From contig DAIDHS010000020.1 of assembly GCA_027451985.1 (NCBI GenBank), positions 1-50,072 on the forward strand: a stretch of DNA of 50,072 nt, written 5' to 3'. The translations under genes and the position numbers were made by a program. This document shows, in pieces, positions 38,536 to 45,456 of this stretch. How positions within the stretch are numbered: position 1 is the stretch's first letter; each line of letters begins with the position of its first letter. The stretch is from Elusimicrobiota bacterium. GTDB taxonomy: Bacteria; Elusimicrobiota; Elusimicrobia; UBA1565; UBA9628. The notes under the pieces were generated by a model. That model searched no databases, was not told the DNA's origin, and worked only from the letters and a program-made list of their open reading frames with translations.

Positions 38536-39000
38536 CTATTGGGCACGTCCCGCGAGAATTTTACGCATTTCCTTAAGGAACTCGATCGTCTTGGGCAAAT
38601 TACCATACGGAATGCGCACCCCCTTCTTCGACCAACCTTTGTACGACTGATCCTCGACCCACTCGCGCAAATCCACGCCGGTGGCGTCCTTGAATATGGT
38701 CACGCGAACGACGAGCTCGATGCCCATGCGCCGAGGGATGCGCGCCAACTCTTTCTCGGCCAGAGCCTGGGGCTCGGCGGGCAAAGACGACAAGGCCTGG
38801 ATGACGCCCTCCAAGGCCGCGGCGTTGAGCGTGATGCCGGCCTTCGTCGGCCCCGAGTAGTGATCCCCTTTGATGAAGGAGCGGATGGAGCCGTAGCGGT
38901 GGCCGCGGTACTCGTCCACGTAGAAGCGGATTTGCGTGACGTCCGAGACGGCGATGGAGCCGATGTCCTTGAGGGGCTTGAATTCCTGGCTTTGGGGCAT
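38536..39000 (-). CDS. Protein with two tandem PC4-like single-stranded-DNA-binding domains
   Basis: The 154-residue product has two copies of a pattern like transcription coactivator p15/PC4. The first (about residues 12-70) contains GSIRSFIKGDHYSGPTKAGITLN and the second (about 95-145) VDLREWVEDQSYKGWSKKGVRI. PC4 domains usually form a dimer of single copies that binds single-stranded DNA; here two copies in one chain could form a pseudo-dimer. I infer nucleic-acid binding from pattern only. ATG at 39000 is chosen over an in-frame GTG at 39012. It heads an operon with prc, clpB and the nucleotidase-like gene. Confidence 0.7.
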   Translation of the reverse strand: MPQSQEFKPLKDIGSIAVSDVTQIRFYVDEYRGHRYGSIRSFIKGDHYSGPTKAGITLNAAALEGVIQALSSLPAEPQALAEKELARIPRRMGIELVVRVTIFKDATGVDLREWVEDQSYKGWSKKGVRIPYGNLPKTIEFLKEMRKILAGRAQ

Positions 39001-39060
39001 GGTGGTCTTCACCGTTCGATCAAGACTACCAAAATCCTAGAGATTTTTCATCCCAAGGGC

Positions 39061-39066
39061 TATAAT
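39061..39066 (+). promoter_or_regulatory. Candidate -10 box of the CNNM-CBS-EIIA gene
   Basis: A perfect TATAAT ends 8 bases before the ATG at 39075. No good -35 box lies 16-18 bases upstream. The gap also contains a Shine-Dalgarno-like ggaaagg, which would be lost from the transcript if the start point were at 39072-39074. The call is tentative for this reason. Confidence 0.35.
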
Positions 39067-39074
39067 GGAAAGGC

Positions 39075-40586
39075 ATGAGCGCCTGGGTGTGGCTGCCCAT
39101 TTTCCTAATTCTCATCAACGGCACCTTTGTCTTAATCGAGTACTCCCTTTTGCGCGTGAGGCCCTCGCGCCTTGAAATTTTGGCCCGGCGGGGCAGCGCC
39201 GCCGCCAAGATCGCCCAAGAGATGCAGGCGCGCTTCGACTACTACCTGGCCGCCATTCAGGTGGGACTCATCTTGACCGCCCTGGCCTTGGGCCGCTTGG
39301 GGGAGCCCATCGTGGCGGCGTGGGTGCAGGAGCATTTCCCCGGGGCCGTCGCGGCATGGCTTGGCCCTCGCTGGGACGCCGCCATCGCCTTCATCTCGGC
39401 TTTGGCCGCGCTCGCTTTCGTGATGTCCGTCTTCGGCGAGCTTTTGCCGCGCGCCGTCGCCTTGCGCCGGGCCGAGGCCGTGGCGCTGTGGGGGGCCTAC
39501 CCGTTGAGGATTTTCGCGGGGGCGTTCCGCCCCGCCGTGTCCCTGATGACGTTCTCTTCGCGCGGGATTCTAAAACTTTTAGGCCTCTCCGGCCCCGCGT
39601 CCTCCGAGACGTCATTGTCTGCGGAAGAGATGCGCGTGCTCATCGGCGAAACCCAGGAGAAGGGCGCCCTGGCCCTGGAGCAGCTTTTTTTGCTGGAAAA
39701 CCTTTTCGATTTCGGCAAAGCCGTGGCCGCGGACGCCATGGTGCCGCGTGAGAAAATCGCCGCCCTCTCCTTGGCCGAGCCTTGGCCCGTCAATCTGGGT
39801 GTCATCCGCGCGCGGCGATTTTCCCGATATCCTATTTACGAAAGCGACTTGGATTCAACCCTGGGTCTGGTTCACGTCAAAGACGTTTTCCTGACGCAGG
39901 ACGGATCGGGCCCGCCGGACTTGCGCCGCCTAAAGCGCGAGCTCATGAGCGTCTCGGAGACCGAGTCTTTGGAGAAGCTGGTCAAAATCCTGCCCGATCG
40001 CGGGGTCCACATGGCGCTGGTGCGCAACGCCCTGGGCCGCGTGGCGGGACTCATCACGCTTGAGGACATCATTGAGGAGCTGGTCGGCGAAGTGCATGAC
40101 GAGTTCGACTTGCCCCAGGCTTGGTCCTTCATGGACGTGGTCTCGCGCAAGTCCGTGGCGGTGCACCTGCAGGCCGCGGACCGCGCCGCGGCGGTGCGCC
40201 GCGTCATGAGCCTTTTGGAAAAAGCGCACCCGGGGATTATTCCCGCGGACGCGCTTTCCGCGGTCTTGGAGCGCGAGGGACGGCTCTCCAGCTGCATCGG
40301 GCGCGGCGTGGCCGTGCCGCACGCGCGCCTGGCTTCCATGGACCGGGGTCTGGTCGCGGTCGGGCGTTTCCACAAGCCCGTCGATTTCGGCGGCGACAAA
40401 GGGCCGGTCCGCCTGGTGTTTCTGGCGCTGACTCCCTCTTCGCACCCGGTCCTTCAGATCCGCATCCTTTCCCGCATCGCGTCCTTGGTCGCCAACGAGA
40501 ACCTGCGCCGCAAGCTGCTCCACGCGCCGTCAGCGGAAAGCCTCTTCGACATCTTGCGCACCGCCGACACCATGCTGGCCGACTAG
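39075..40586 (+). CDS. CNNM-CBS membrane protein fused to a PTS EIIA domain
   Basis: The 503-residue product starts with a CNNM (DUF21) transmembrane domain (about residues 1-170), with VFGELLPRAVALRRAE as in magnesium or cobalt efflux proteins of the CorB/CorC kind. A CBS pair follows (about 220-335) with ADAMVPREKIAAL and VAGLITLEDIIEELVGEVHDEFD. Such proteins normally end in a CorC_HlyC domain. Here residues 350-495 match PTS EIIA of the fructose/nitrogen type, including the phosphorylatable His416 in GVAVPHARL and VFLALTPSSHPVLQIRILSRIASL. It could couple PTS phosphorylation to ion transport; this is inference. Confidence 0.88.
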   Translation: MSAWVWLPIFLILINGTFVLIEYSLLRVRPSRLEILARRGSAAAKIAQEMQARFDYYLAAIQVGLILTALALGRLGEPIVAAWVQEHFPGAVAAWLGPRWDAAIAFISALAALAFVMSVFGELLPRAVALRRAEAVALWGAYPLRIFAGAFRPAVSLMTFSSRGILKLLGLSGPASSETSLSAEEMRVLIGETQEKGALALEQLFLLENLFDFGKAVAADAMVPREKIAALSLAEPWPVNLGVIRARRFSRYPIYESDLDSTLGLVHVKDVFLTQDGSGPPDLRRLKRELMSVSETESLEKLVKILPDRGVHMALVRNALGRVAGLITLEDIIEELVGEVHDEFDLPQAWSFMDVVSRKSVAVHLQAADRAAAVRRVMSLLEKAHPGIIPADALSAVLEREGRLSSCIGRGVAVPHARLASMDRGLVAVGRFHKPVDFGGDKGPVRLVFLALTPSSHPVLQIRILSRIASLVANENLRRKLLHAPSAESLFDILRTADTMLAD

Positions 40587-40625: not shown

Positions 40626-41657
40626 ATGGCGGCGACCGGGAGACCTTCTCTTTTCCTCGACGCCTGCCGCCGGCGCCCGACGCCCCGCCCGCCCGTCTGG
40701 TTCATGCGCCAAGCGGGGCGCTACATGAAGGACTACCGAGATCTGCGCGCCAAGCACTCCATTTTGGAGCTGGCCAAGACGCCCGAGCTGGCCTGCGCCG
40801 TGACCCTGCAGCCAGTGCGCCGCTTCGGCTTCGACGCGGCGATTTTGTTCTCCGACATCCTCCTGCCCCTGGAGCCCATGGGCGCGCGCCTGCGTTTCGC
40901 TCCGGCGCCGATCATCGACAACCCCGTGCGCTCGGCCCGGGACGCCGCGCGCTTGAGGCCCTGCGCGCCTCGCGAGGACTTGTCCCGAGTGCTCAAGGCC
41001 GTTTCGCTTCTGCGCCGGGAGCTTGGCCAAACGCCGCTCATCGGCTTCGTTGGCGCGCCCTTCACTCTTGCCAGCTACCTCATCGAGGGCGGCCCTTCCA
41101 AGGATTTCGTCCGGACCAAGGCTTTCATGAACGCGGAGCCCGCCGCCTGGGCCGGCCTCATGCGTCGGTTGGCCAAAATGGGCGCGGACTATCTCACGGC
41201 GCAGGTCGAGGCGGGTTGTCAGGCCGTACAGATTTTCGACAGCTGGGCCGGGGCTCTCTCGCCCGCGCAGTACCGCGGCAAGGTCCTGCCTTATTCGCGC
41301 GCGCTCGTCGCCGGAGCGCAAAAAAGTGGGGCGCCGATCATCCACTTTGGCACCGGGACGGCTGGATTTTTGCGCGACTTCGCGTCGGCCGGCAGCGACG
41401 CGGTGGGCGTGGACTGGCGCGTGGACTTGGCGCAGGCCTTCAAGACGTGCCGGGGCCAGGCCGTGCAAGGAAACCTCGATCCGGCCGTCCTGGCGGGACC
41501 GTTGCCCGCGCTGAAGAAGGCCGCTGCGGAGATTCTCCGCACCGGCCGCGGTCGCAGGGGGTTCATCTTTAATTTGGGCCACGGCGTTTTGCCCCAGACG
41601 CCGGAGGCCAACGTCTTGGCCGCGGTTGAACTGGTCCGCAGCGCGGGCCGCCCATGA
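40626..41657 (+). CDS. hemE: Uroporphyrinogen III decarboxylase
   Basis: HemE removes the four acetate carboxyls of uroporphyrinogen III to give coproporphyrinogen III. The 343-residue product contains the signature PPVWFMRQAGRYMKDYRDLRAKHS, the FSDILLPLEPMGA segment with the catalytic aspartate, GFVGAPFTLASYLIEGG, and near the end NLGHGVLPQTPEANV. It overlaps hemY by ATGA, so the two haem steps are coupled. A TAAGAT (40612-40617) lies 8 bases before the ATG. Confidence 0.96.
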   Translation: MAATGRPSLFLDACRRRPTPRPPVWFMRQAGRYMKDYRDLRAKHSILELAKTPELACAVTLQPVRRFGFDAAILFSDILLPLEPMGARLRFAPAPIIDNPVRSARDAARLRPCAPREDLSRVLKAVSLLRRELGQTPLIGFVGAPFTLASYLIEGGPSKDFVRTKAFMNAEPAAWAGLMRRLAKMGADYLTAQVEAGCQAVQIFDSWAGALSPAQYRGKVLPYSRALVAGAQKSGAPIIHFGTGTAGFLRDFASAGSDAVGVDWRVDLAQAFKTCRGQAVQGNLDPAVLAGPLPALKKAAAEILRTGRGRRGFIFNLGHGVLPQTPEANVLAAVELVRSAGRP

Positions 41658-43099
41658 CTCGTCGCGAGCCGCGCTCGCGCGATGGCGGATCCAGCGCCTC
41701 CTTGCGTCGGCCCAGGCGCGTCGCGGTTCTGGGCGCCGGCGTCGCCGGCCTCGCCGCAGCCTATGAAGTCTCCCGCGCGGGCGCGCCGGAGCGCGCCCAG
41801 GCGCTGGTCTTGGAGGCGGCGGATCGAGTCGGCGGCAAAGTTTTAAGCGTCTCGCGCGGCGGCGTCATCTACGAGGCCGGGCCGGACTCCTTCATTTCCG
41901 CCAAGCCGGACGTGCTGGATTTGGCCCGGGAGCTGGGCATTTCGGGAGATTTGGCGGCGACCAAGCCCGGATCCTCCTCGGTCTCCATTTATTTCCGCGG
42001 CCGCCTGCGGACGCTGCGCGGCGGGATGTGGCCGCCCAAAGCCTCGGCGCTTTTGAGTTCGGGCCTTTTGAGCTGGCGCGGGCTGGCGCGGCTGGCGCTT
42101 AGCCGCTGGCCGGGGTCCGAAGACCCCGTCGGAACGGACGAGTCTCTGGCGGCGTTCGTGCGCCGCCGCTTCGGCCAAGAGGCGCTTGAGCGCCTGGCCG
42201 ATCCGCTTTTGGCCGGCATCTACGCCGGAGACGCGGAAGAGCTGAGCCTGGAAAGCACCTTCCCCCAAATCAAAACGGCTTTCGCCAAGAACGGCGCCTC
42301 CGCCGCCCGGCCGCCCTGGCGCCCGGCGCCCGGGCAAAGCTTGTTCATGACCTTTCAAGGCGGCCTCTCGCGGCTTCCCGAGGCGCTCTGCGCGGCGCTG
42401 CCCGGCGGGGCGGTGCGCACGGGCGCGCGCGTGCTTGCGCTCTCGCGCCGCGACCGGGAATGGAAGATTGAGACCTCGGCGGGGGACTTCGCTGCCGACG
42501 CCGTCGTGAGCGCTCTTCCGGCCGGCGCCCTGGCGCCCGCGGTCGAGCGCCTCGATCCGGAACTGGCTGCCGTTCTGCGGGAGATTCCCTTCGCCTCCAC
42601 GGCCACGGTGTCCCTGCTTTACGACGATTCCTCACTGCCGGTCAGGCCCGAGGGCTTCGGCTTTTTGGTGCCGCGCAGGGAAGGCAAGGCGGTCTCCGCC
42701 GCGACCTACAGCTCTTCCAAGTTTCCCGGCCGCGCGCCGGAAGGCAAAACGCTGGTACGCTGCTTCGTGGGCGGCGCGGGACGCGGCGCCTGGGCCGAGA
42801 AATCAGAGGAGGATCTGATCCGCCTGGCCTCGGAGGAACTCTCCGAAATCCTGGGCCTGGGCAAGTCCTGCCGGCCCGTGGAGGCCAAGGCTTGGCGCTG
42901 GATTGCGGCCAACCCGCAATACACCGTGGGCCATGCCCTGCGCTTAAAGCGTCTGGAGTCCTGCTTGATGGGACATCCTGGGCTCATCCTGGCGGGCGCC
43001 TCCTACCGCGGCGTGGGCTTGCCCGACTGCGTGCGCTCGGGCCGCGCTGCCGCCCGCGCCGCGCTTTCCCCGCGCGGCGGCTTTCCAGCCGTCGTTTAA
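41654..43099 (+). CDS. hemY: Protoporphyrinogen/coproporphyrinogen oxidase, HemY type
   Basis: This FAD enzyme oxidises the porphyrinogen ring late in haem synthesis. The 481-residue product has the FAD-binding motif AVLGAGVAGLAAAYEVSR (about residues 24-41), GGKVLSVSRGGVIYEAGPDSFI, and the C-terminal FAD segment GLILAGASYRGVGLPDCVRSGR. The length and motifs are of the HemY flavin amine oxidase type, not the HemG flavodoxin type. Whether it acts on coproporphyrinogen or protoporphyrinogen cannot be told here; neither hemH nor hemQ is in the window. Confidence 0.92.
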   Translation: MTRREPRSRDGGSSASLRRPRRVAVLGAGVAGLAAAYEVSRAGAPERAQALVLEAADRVGGKVLSVSRGGVIYEAGPDSFISAKPDVLDLARELGISGDLAATKPGSSSVSIYFRGRLRTLRGGMWPPKASALLSSGLLSWRGLARLALSRWPGSEDPVGTDESLAAFVRRRFGQEALERLADPLLAGIYAGDAEELSLESTFPQIKTAFAKNGASAARPPWRPAPGQSLFMTFQGGLSRLPEALCAALPGGAVRTGARVLALSRRDREWKIETSAGDFAADAVVSALPAGALAPAVERLDPELAAVLREIPFASTATVSLLYDDSSLPVRPEGFGFLVPRREGKAVSAATYSSSKFPGRAPEGKTLVRCFVGGAGRGAWAEKSEEDLIRLASEELSEILGLGKSCRPVEAKAWRWIAANPQYTVGHALRLKRLESCLMGHPGLILAGASYRGVGLPDCVRSGRAAARAALSPRGGFPAVV

Positions 43100-43109
43100 A
43101 GCTCCGGGA

Positions 43110-44420
43110 CTACGCGTAGCGCTGGATCAAAATCGCCGTGAAACCGGCCGCGAGCACGGCCAACGTGGGCAGGAGCATCCGGCAGCGCCCGCGCGCGCTT
43201 TGTGCGGGGCGAAAAAACAGCGGCCAGTTGAGGTTGCTCGCGGCGCTGACCATGGAGGCGAGCACCGCCGCGACGGCCGCGACTTGCTCACCGACCTGGC
43301 CGCGCGCACCCAGGTTTGCGGCCGAGGCGACGGCGCTCGCGCTGCTGAAAATCCCGCCCGCGAGGCTCGCCCCGAAGAATCCTGAGCGGCCAATGTGCCG
43401 CTCGGCCAGCACGCCCGCGGCCTCGATGGCGAAGAAGAGCGCGGCGAAAGCGGAGAGCCGCCGCAGTGAGATTGGCGAGGAGATTTTAAGCTCGAAGCCC
43501 TGGCGCGGGCCGTCGGACTGAAGCTTGGCGAAGAGCAGGGCCGTCGCGGCCATGGCCAAAAGCGGGGCGGCGGCGAAGCGCGCGGAAGAGGGGTAGAGCA
43601 GCGCCAGGAGCAGCAGGTTGCGCGAGAACATGGCAAAGACCGTCAGCAGCGATGCCGCGGCCAGGACGGGCTCGGCGGCTTCGCTTAGCCCGCCCAAGGC
43701 GGCGGTCAGCTCCGCGACGGTGGCCGTGCTGTTGACCAAGCCGCCCAGGATGGCGGTGTAGTGGAATCCGCGCGTGCTCCAAAGCCGCAGGAGCACGTAG
43801 TTGACGAAGCCGATGCTGGCGATGACGATGATGGTGACCCAGAACTCGCGGGGATTTAAAAGCCCCCACGGATCGATGAGGCGGTCGGGCAGAATCGGGT
43901 AGATGACGAAGCTCAGGAGGCCCAGGAGCACGGCGCTGCGGATCTCCTCGGGGCGCAAGCGGCTTGCGAAGTTGGTGAGTTCCACCTTCCAAGTGAGCAA
44001 AATGGTGGTCAAAATCGCCGCGGCCACGGGCTCGAAGAGACGGCCCTGCCCGATGAGCACGCCCAGCACGAAGGTCAGCACCAGGACCACGGAGGTGGTC
44101 ACCTCCAGGGTCTTGTCCAGCAGCAGGCGGCGTATATTAAGGAAAGCGATGAGCACCAGCACGCCGGCCAGGGCGGCGATGGAAAAAGCGATGGATAAAA
44201 GCGCGCTGAGCATGCCCAAAAGCGCCGTGATGGCGAAGGTGCGCGCACCCGCGTCTTTGTTGGACCACTCGCGCTCAAGGCCGATCAAGAGCCCCGCGCC
44301 CAAAGACAACAATAGACGCAGCGCCATGTCTTGGGCGGAGATGGGGATGGGCACGGAAAGTAGTATCTCCCCAGCGGCCAGAATTGTCAAGTCCAGCGCT
44401 GTTATGCCATAGTGAGACAT
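43110..44420 (-). CDS. MgtC/SapB and DUF4010 family membrane protein
   Basis: The product (436 residues from ATG 44420) is polytopic, with about a dozen hydrophobic segments. The N-terminal part has the MgtC-like motif GAGLLIGLEREWSNKDAGARTFAITALLG; the C-terminal part has DUF4010 features such as YTAILGGLVNSTATVAEL and SGFFGASLAGGIFSSASAVAS. The role of this family is not well known; magnesium or small-molecule homeostasis is usually assumed. An alternative start at 44327 (MALRLLLSLGAGLLIGLERE) fits many relatives better and would leave about 90 bases for promoters. The start is therefore uncertain. Confidence 0.82.
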   Translation of the reverse strand: MSHYGITALDLTILAAGEILLSVPIPISAQDMALRLLLSLGAGLLIGLEREWSNKDAGARTFAITALLGMLSALLSIAFSIAALAGVLVLIAFLNIRRLLLDKTLEVTTSVVLVLTFVLGVLIGQGRLFEPVAAAILTTILLTWKVELTNFASRLRPEEIRSAVLLGLLSFVIYPILPDRLIDPWGLLNPREFWVTIIVIASIGFVNYVLLRLWSTRGFHYTAILGGLVNSTATVAELTAALGGLSEAAEPVLAAASLLTVFAMFSRNLLLLALLYPSSARFAAAPLLAMAATALLFAKLQSDGPRQGFELKISSPISLRRLSAFAALFFAIEAAGVLAERHIGRSGFFGASLAGGIFSSASAVASAANLGARGQVGEQVAAVAAVLASMVSAASNLNWPLFFRPAQSARGRCRMLLPTLAVLAAGFTAILIQRYA

Positions 44421-45456
44421 GGATGTGTCCAAGGCCGCGGCTGTTTTAAAAAGGCTTAAGGCTCCGCACTTCCGCCTCGCCCAGTTGCGCCAAGCGGTGT
44501 TCCGCGATGCGCAGGACTCCTACGAGGCGATGACCACCCTGCCCGAGGAACTGCGCCGCGCCTTGTCCGCGGAGGTCCCGATTTTGCGCCTCTCGCCCGC
44601 CCTTGTCCGCGCCTCCGCGGACGGCCTGTGCCGCAAGGCTCTTTTGCGGCTTCACGACGGTCTCAAGATCGAGACCGTGCTTCTGCGCCCGAGCTCCCGG
44701 CGCTGGACCGTGTGCATTTCCAGCCAGGCCGGCTGCGCGGTGGCCTGCACGTTCTGCGCCACGGGCCTGATGGGGCTCGCGCGCAATTTGACCGCCGAGG
44801 AAATCTCGGATCAGGTTCTTTTTTGGAAGCAGCTGATGCGCCGGGAAAAAATCGCGGGCGGCGAGGCGGGGCCGGACAATGTCGTCTACATGGGCATGGG
44901 CGAGCCCTTCGCCAACTATGAGCCCGTGGCCCAGAGCCTGCGCGCGCTCATGGATCAGACGCAGTTCGGTTTGGGCGCGAGGCACATCTCGGTCTCCACT
45001 TCCGGCATCGCGCCTAAAATCGAGCGTTTCGCCGAGGATTTTCCCCAGGTGAACTTGGCGCTGTCCTTGCACGCGGCCGAGGATTCGTTGCGGACGAAGC
45101 TGGTGCCCATGAACAGGGCCTATCCCCTGGAAAGCCTGGCCGCGTCTTTGCGCGCCTACCTGGAGCGGACCGGGCGAAAAATTTTCGTGGAGTACGTGCT
45201 TTTGCGCGGAGAGAACGACCGGCCTCAAGACGCCCGCAGCCTTGCGGACTATCTGCGCTCCATCGGGCCCTTAGAGCGCCTGCACGTGAACCTCATCGCC
45301 TTCAACCAGACCGATACGCCGCACCAAGCGCCGCCCGAGGCCGAGGCCCGGCGCTTCCAAGCTCTCTTGCGCCGCGATGGAATTCCGACGACATTGCGCC
45401 AGAATTTGGGCCAGGACATCAACGGCGCCTGCGGCCAGCTGTTGGCCAAGAACTAA
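44419..45456 (+). CDS. rlmN: Dual-specificity RNA methyltransferase RlmN
   Basis: RlmN is a radical SAM enzyme that makes m2A in 23S rRNA A2503 and in some tRNAs. The 345-residue product has the N-terminal accessory domain (PHFRLAQLRQAVF, EAMTTLPEELRRAL), the radical SAM cysteines in CAVACTFCATG, MGMGEPFANYEPV, STSGIAPKIERFAED, LALSLHA and VEYVLLRGENDR. The mechanistic C-terminal cysteine is in NGACGQLLAKN. Its ATG (44419-44421) overlaps the divergent gene's possible ATG by 2 bases. Confidence 0.96.
   Translation: MDVSKAAAVLKRLKAPHFRLAQLRQAVFRDAQDSYEAMTTLPEELRRALSAEVPILRLSPALVRASADGLCRKALLRLHDGLKIETVLLRPSSRRWTVCISSQAGCAVACTFCATGLMGLARNLTAEEISDQVLFWKQLMRREKIAGGEAGPDNVVYMGMGEPFANYEPVAQSLRALMDQTQFGLGARHISVSTSGIAPKIERFAEDFPQVNLALSLHAAEDSLRTKLVPMNRAYPLESLAASLRAYLERTGRKIFVEYVLLRGENDRPQDARSLADYLRSIGPLERLHVNLIAFNQTDTPHQAPPEAEARRFQALLRRDGIPTTLRQNLGQDINGACGQLLAKN

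Follow-up and report, generated by a model that had tools for sequence, protein, structure and literature searches.

The window, by which we mean the whole stretch of 50,072 nucleotides analysed here, covers positions 1 to 50,072 of the forward strand of contig DAIDHS010000020.1, from an Elusimicrobiota bacterium (GCA_027451985.1; GTDB lineage Bacteria; Elusimicrobiota; Elusimicrobia; UBA1565; UBA9628) whose 2.41 Mb genome is 95% complete and was searched family by family. A gene with an ATG start at 39075..40586 on the plus strand encodes a 503 aa-long CNNM-CBS-EIIA fusion protein, as delineated by its open reading frame, Pfam matches and full-length homologues. The protein consists of a CNNM (DUF21) transmembrane domain (TMD; residues 9-200; 39099..39674, plus strand; Pfam, conservation and fold match), a CBS pair region (residues 201-345; 39675..40109, plus strand; Pfam and structure) and, in the place of CorC_HlyC, a PTS_EIIA_2 (EIIANtr-like) domain (residues 357-495; 40143..40559, plus strand; Pfam and fold match). 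The codon for His416, the predicted phosphorylation site within a VPHARL motif, is located at 40320..40322 on the same strand. A promoter-like 10/12 match is present at window positions 39038-39074, with a TATAAT that ends 9 bases 5' of the fusion ATG and a GGAAAGG Shine-Dalgarno-like run between the two; this match could reflect either a leaderless start or chance.

Divergently from the fusion, a 158 aa PC4-like protein (PF02229) is encoded at 38536..39012 on the minus strand, and this gene is the conserved upstream neighbour at about 15 loci of the family. The conserved downstream neighbour is hemE (uroporphyrinogen decarboxylase; 40626..41657, plus strand), which shares a 4-base overlap with a protoporphyrinogen-oxidase-like gene (Amino_oxidase; 41654..43099, plus strand). 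An MgtC-DUF4010 membrane protein (43110..44432, minus strand) neighbours the fusion in the same genus only. The PC4-like protein, hemE and the protoporphyrinogen oxidase gene were considered as functional partners of the fusion and judged incidental, and they are probably not part of its mechanism.

The CNNM match (PF01595) spans residues 9-200 (E = 1.5e-38; 132.7 bits, cut-off 28.4), while Pfam calls CBS (PF00571) at residues 287-337 (E = 1.4e-7; 32.2 bits, cut-off 24), the extent of the CBS pair (~201-345) being set by structure. The PTS_EIIA_2 match (PF00359; residues 357-495) covers profile positions 4-142 of 144 (E = 4.4e-23; 82.3 bits, cut-off 27), and Pfam detects no CorC_HlyC (PF03471) in the fusion protein; the claim of the initial annotation that CorC has given way to a complete EIIA is thereby borne out. 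In an AlphaFold2 model (pLDDT 83.6; 22 homologues as input), the EIIA part matches IIA-Ntr (1a6j; Z 23.5, rmsd 1.7 over 148 residues), the TMD matches that of CorC (7cff; Z 16.7, rmsd 2.2) and the CBS part matches the CorC CBS pair (7cfi; Z 19.2). The orientation of the domains relative to each other is unreliable in this model (pTM 0.46), with low pLDDT at residues 175-199 and 341-346. The TMD and CBS pair can be aligned from end to end with those of MtCorB and TpCorC (the PF01595, CBS and PF03471 architecture to which MpfA and YhdP also belong by literature), the structure 7m1t of this type aligning with residues 1-339 of the fusion. The fused architecture is real, far beyond chance; an accidental or frameshift joining of two genes is ruled out by full-length homologues in ~120 genomes.

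Relatives of the fusion were retrieved from Elusimicrobia and from one 'Planctomycetales' metagenome-assembled genome (MAG). Full-length fusions, defined within the phylum of the window as matches reaching residue 474 or beyond, occur in about 92 of its 295 genomes, all of one class among the matches listed; outside this class, the listed matches from the phylum are just CNNM-CBS. A profile search of the phylum of the 'Planctomycetales' MAG recovered 30 full-length fusions in 27/246 genomes, some of which carry two or three copies. This spread over two phyla rejects a restriction of the fusion to one genus, and the survey of CNNM-EIIA fusions proposed in the initial annotation has thus yielded a conserved family in two groups of bacteria, not a one-off. 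Plasmid records contain CNNM matches, none of which covers 80% of the query, and no fusion. Split pairs of a CNNM gene and a separate EIIA gene were not found in the ten stretches examined from fusion-free lineages (L052-L061), apart from genome G182, where CNNM and EIIA occupy two frames at one locus, likely owing to a sequencing error or to pseudogene formation. One family of the same class (f7) possesses CNNM-CBS proteins without any C-terminal domain (L052:3138-4187, L053:2812-3861 and L060:2813-3865), an arrangement suggesting that CNNM proteins can do without a C-terminal module or obtain it in trans. For the C-terminus of the CNNM-CBS protein of f4/g19, Pfam gave no match at E 0.01.

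In an unrooted tree of CNNM cores (70 rows including 42 fused ones; 200 bootstrap trees), all 42 fused rows fall on one side of a single branch with a support of 100/100, and each of the 200 bootstrap trees needs one change between the fused and unfused states. Several independent fusions can therefore be discarded. The closest unfused rows (L108, L109 and L114), as well as more distant ones (L117, L128 and L129), all bear CorC_HlyC, which indicates that CorC was replaced by EIIA; the plainest reading of the tree is that a CorC-bearing ancestor would have swapped its C-terminal domain once. One copy from genome G229, which belongs to the order of the window, is nested among sequences from the second phylum; some transfer of the fusion between the two groups is therefore likely.

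The sequence around His416 reads GVAVPHARL, and this histidine, put forward as the active-site residue in the initial annotation, is indeed invariant in alignments of 36/36 and then 57/57 fusions from the two groups of bacteria. Among these 57 proteins, pairwise identity of the EIIA part has a median of 38% and a minimum of 21%, and 6 of about 146 columns are invariant: R400, P415, H416, R418, F449 and L465. Between the fusion of the window and its nearest relative (L005), the EIIA part differs by 23 synonymous and 6 non-synonymous codons, a synonymous excess showing that this domain is under purifying selection. It resembles EIIANtr/PtsN in its fold, in the GxGxAxPHxR active-site motif and in having no attached EIIB or EIIC. 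Unlike PtsN, however, it remains below the cut-off of the PtsN equivalog model (TIGR01419; 54.2 bits, cut-off 138.7), and the second histidine of PtsN-type proteins, at position 461 by gapless alignment to the PtsN-like protein of the host genome, is replaced by Gln in 47/57 fusions and kept in the other 10. The active site of the fusion hence differs from the textbook one.

Potential phosphoryl donors were identified elsewhere in the host genome, where the initial annotation had suggested looking for EI and HPr. These are one EI of the PTS_I family (TIGR01417; 543 bits, cut-off 341.7), one HPr with both the His site (GFHARPA) and the Ser site (NGKSVLG), and one HPr kinase (TIGR00679; 338 bits, cut-off 240). 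The end of contig C3 carries hprK and the start of a rapZ-like gene, and the end of contig C23 carries the end of a rapZ-like gene followed by HPr and EI; hprK, rapZ, HPr and EI are probably a single operon interrupted by a contig break. The absence of any PTS donor coupled to loss of the histidine in relatives, which would have spoken against the initial annotation, was thus not observed. A search for PTS_EIIC (PF02378, the sole permease family searched) found no match in this 95% complete genome. Since EI is present in 189/196 genomes of the class, its co-occurrence with the fusion has no discriminating power. Two fusion-bearing MAGs, G200 (97% complete) and G207 (93%), yielded no EI, HPr or HPr kinase and nevertheless keep the histidine of the fusion; the donor genes could have been lost in these lineages, or the assemblies could have a gap at a single operon.

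We propose that the fusion transports cations in the manner of CNNM proteins, most likely exporting Mg2+, and that it is gated by phosphorylation of His416 together with Mg-ATP binding at the CBS pair, a reading to which we assign, from the sequences, a probability of roughly 60%. Phosphate would flow from PEP through EI and HPr to His416 and end there, no EIIC partner having been found by the PF02378 search. The EIIA is predicted to sit directly behind the CBS pair, ~ten residues away, in the position that CorC occupies in ordinary CNNMs, and in MtCorB the CorC domain touches CBS2 (PMC8242095). From this position the phosphorylation state of the EIIA could be passed on to the CBS pair, predicted to read Mg-ATP as well, and this state and Mg-ATP binding would together set the activity of the transporter; the rate of transport would then depend on the PEP/pyruvate ratio and on HPr kinase. 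In E. coli, the K+/H+ antiporter YcgO is inhibited when unphosphorylated PtsN binds to it (PMC11808508), and by analogy the unphosphorylated form would be the inhibitory one, although the opposite sign is possible. Like its relatives, the fusion is probably dimeric.

Members of the CNNM family are best known as magnesium transporters, and the fusion is the sole CNNM recovered from the host genome by the family search. Six TMD residues (N15, V19, E22, Q62, E122 and P125) are invariant across the fusions. E122 and P125 correspond to Glu111 and Pro114 in the pi-helical turn of MtCorB TM3, and the Arg/Lys at position 126 of this functional turn is also kept; in TtCorB, mutations of pi-turn residues lowered Mg2+ transport (PMC8242095). 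R251 in the CBS region, which corresponds to the ATP-contacting R235 in MtCorB, is likewise invariant in all fusions. The residues serving as Mg2+ ligands in MtCorB, namely Ser21, Ser25 and Ser71 (Asn in bacteria), are not retained, their counterparts in the fusion being N15, V19 and L65, with a less sure alignment at position 65. These replacements raise the possibility that the PTS switch is as we propose and that the cargo is not Mg2+ but polyamines, Co2+ or Na+. In line with this, the closest curated full-length CNNM model is that of the polyamine exporter PaeA (NF052568), although the score of 112 bits is far under the cut-off of 500. We nonetheless consider another cargo unlikely: similar replacements occur in the CorC-bearing sister CNNMs, and in the unfused rows N and V/A predominate at the positions of Ser21 and Ser25; moreover, Glu122, Pro125 and Arg/Lys126 of the pi-turn are kept, and a paralogous EIIA adjoins the gene for the Mg2+-ATPase MgtA in the same genome. 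The cargo of the fusion is therefore probably, if not surely, Mg2+. Two TMD residues set the window protein and its sister L005 apart from nearly all relatives: I66 where the others have T (39270-39272) and R74 where they have W/A (39294-39296), which may signal a shifted TMD function in the genus of the window.

The host genome encodes four EIIA_2 genes, and the surroundings of several of these bear on the proposed role of the fusion. A 257 aa protein, with an N-terminal EIIA and ~100 C-terminal residues without a Pfam match, is encoded right after the stop codon of MgtA (L049:4704-8129, G000 contig C32), the latter being identified at the equivalog level (1141 bits, cut-off 610.75). The pairing recurs, MgtA lying immediately upstream of 15 out of 20 related EIIA genes from several families, which suggests that MgtA is regulated by EIIA. 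The remaining five relatives, all of genus g2, lack MgtA at that place, and in the three of them whose surroundings were read it is occupied by a glucoamylase-like gene. A PtsN-like EIIA gene is followed on the same strand by a BBP2 porin gene, kdpA and a kdpB-like gene (L048, 1-5553, G000 contig C30), and Kdp is reported to be among the PtsN targets of proteobacteria (PMC9239096). A further EIIA of 166 aa, with LPHARL kept, directly precedes def (peptide deformylase) and fmt (L050:4343-5355, G000 contig C7), an unexpected neighbourhood for a PTS protein. Because one EIIA gene adjoins MgtA and a PtsN-like one lies near kdpAB, we favour a role of the host EIIAs in cation homeostasis, as for the proteobacterial targets of PtsN; the link to carbon or nitrogen supply raised in the initial annotation is speculative. 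A wider and tentative extension, with rather less than an even chance of being correct, is that a permease-free PTS has turned into a cation phosphorelay in which EI and HPr would charge the CNNM-, MgtA- and kdpAB-linked EIIAs.

Control might also run in the reverse direction, with the CBS pair and TMD sensing both Mg-ATP and the cation and the EIIA passing this information on to the PTS, either by serving as a phosphate sink or by docking to other proteins; the protein would then be more a sensor than a regulated transporter. The invariance of the ATP-contacting R251 would fit such a sensor, as would the negative PF02378 search for an EIIC partner that drains phosphate. However, the carboxylate within the membrane and the proline of the pi-turn never vary, for which a pure sensor would have no obvious need, and the fusion is the only CNNM of its genome, so that we regard this reversal as very improbable. 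Similarly little weight can be given to the EIIA being an unphosphorylated structural stand-in for CorC that provides docking or dimer contacts: the usual second histidine is indeed gone at 461 in most members and the fusion is kept in the two MAGs without detected EI, HPr or HPr kinase, but His416, Arg400, Arg418 and Pro415 are among the six columns that are invariant in 57 proteins of 38% median identity, and such a stand-in would not need the histidine.

The component families of the proposed phosphorylation-gated transporter are known and it would follow the logic of LacS and PtsN, whereas the combination appears new; no description of CNNM-EIIA proteins was found in the open-access literature. 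Known CorB/CorC transporters end in CorC_HlyC where the fusion has EIIA; E111, P114 and R235 of MtCorB have kept equivalents in the fusion, and the Mg2+-ligand serines are absent from the fusion and from its CorC-bearing sisters alike. The lactose transporter LacS carries a C-terminal EIIAGlc-like domain that is phosphorylated by HPr, and the fusion would work in the same way, although LacS belongs to another transporter family and carries a sugar while the fusion is a putative ion carrier. The EIIA family also differs, being EIIAGlc in LacS and PTS_EIIA_2 in the fusion. To our knowledge, no metal transporter with direct PTS phosphorylation has been described before. E. coli PtsN exerts its effect on ion transporters, YcgO among them, by binding (PMC11808508), whereas the EIIA of the fusion is covalently joined to the transporter. 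According to a 2023 review, LacS is the sole bacterial transporter known to be directly phosphorylated (PMC10710835); if our reading holds, the fusion would be the second, unrelated to LacS. The parts of the fusion can be expressed and reconstituted, which makes the idea open to direct testing. If it is correct, the C-terminal domain of CNNM proteins would be an exchangeable regulatory module and permease-free PTS systems of uncultured bacteria would gain a concrete target; should the wider phosphorelay also exist, Mg2+ export, Mg2+ import and K+ uptake would come under one PEP-driven signal.
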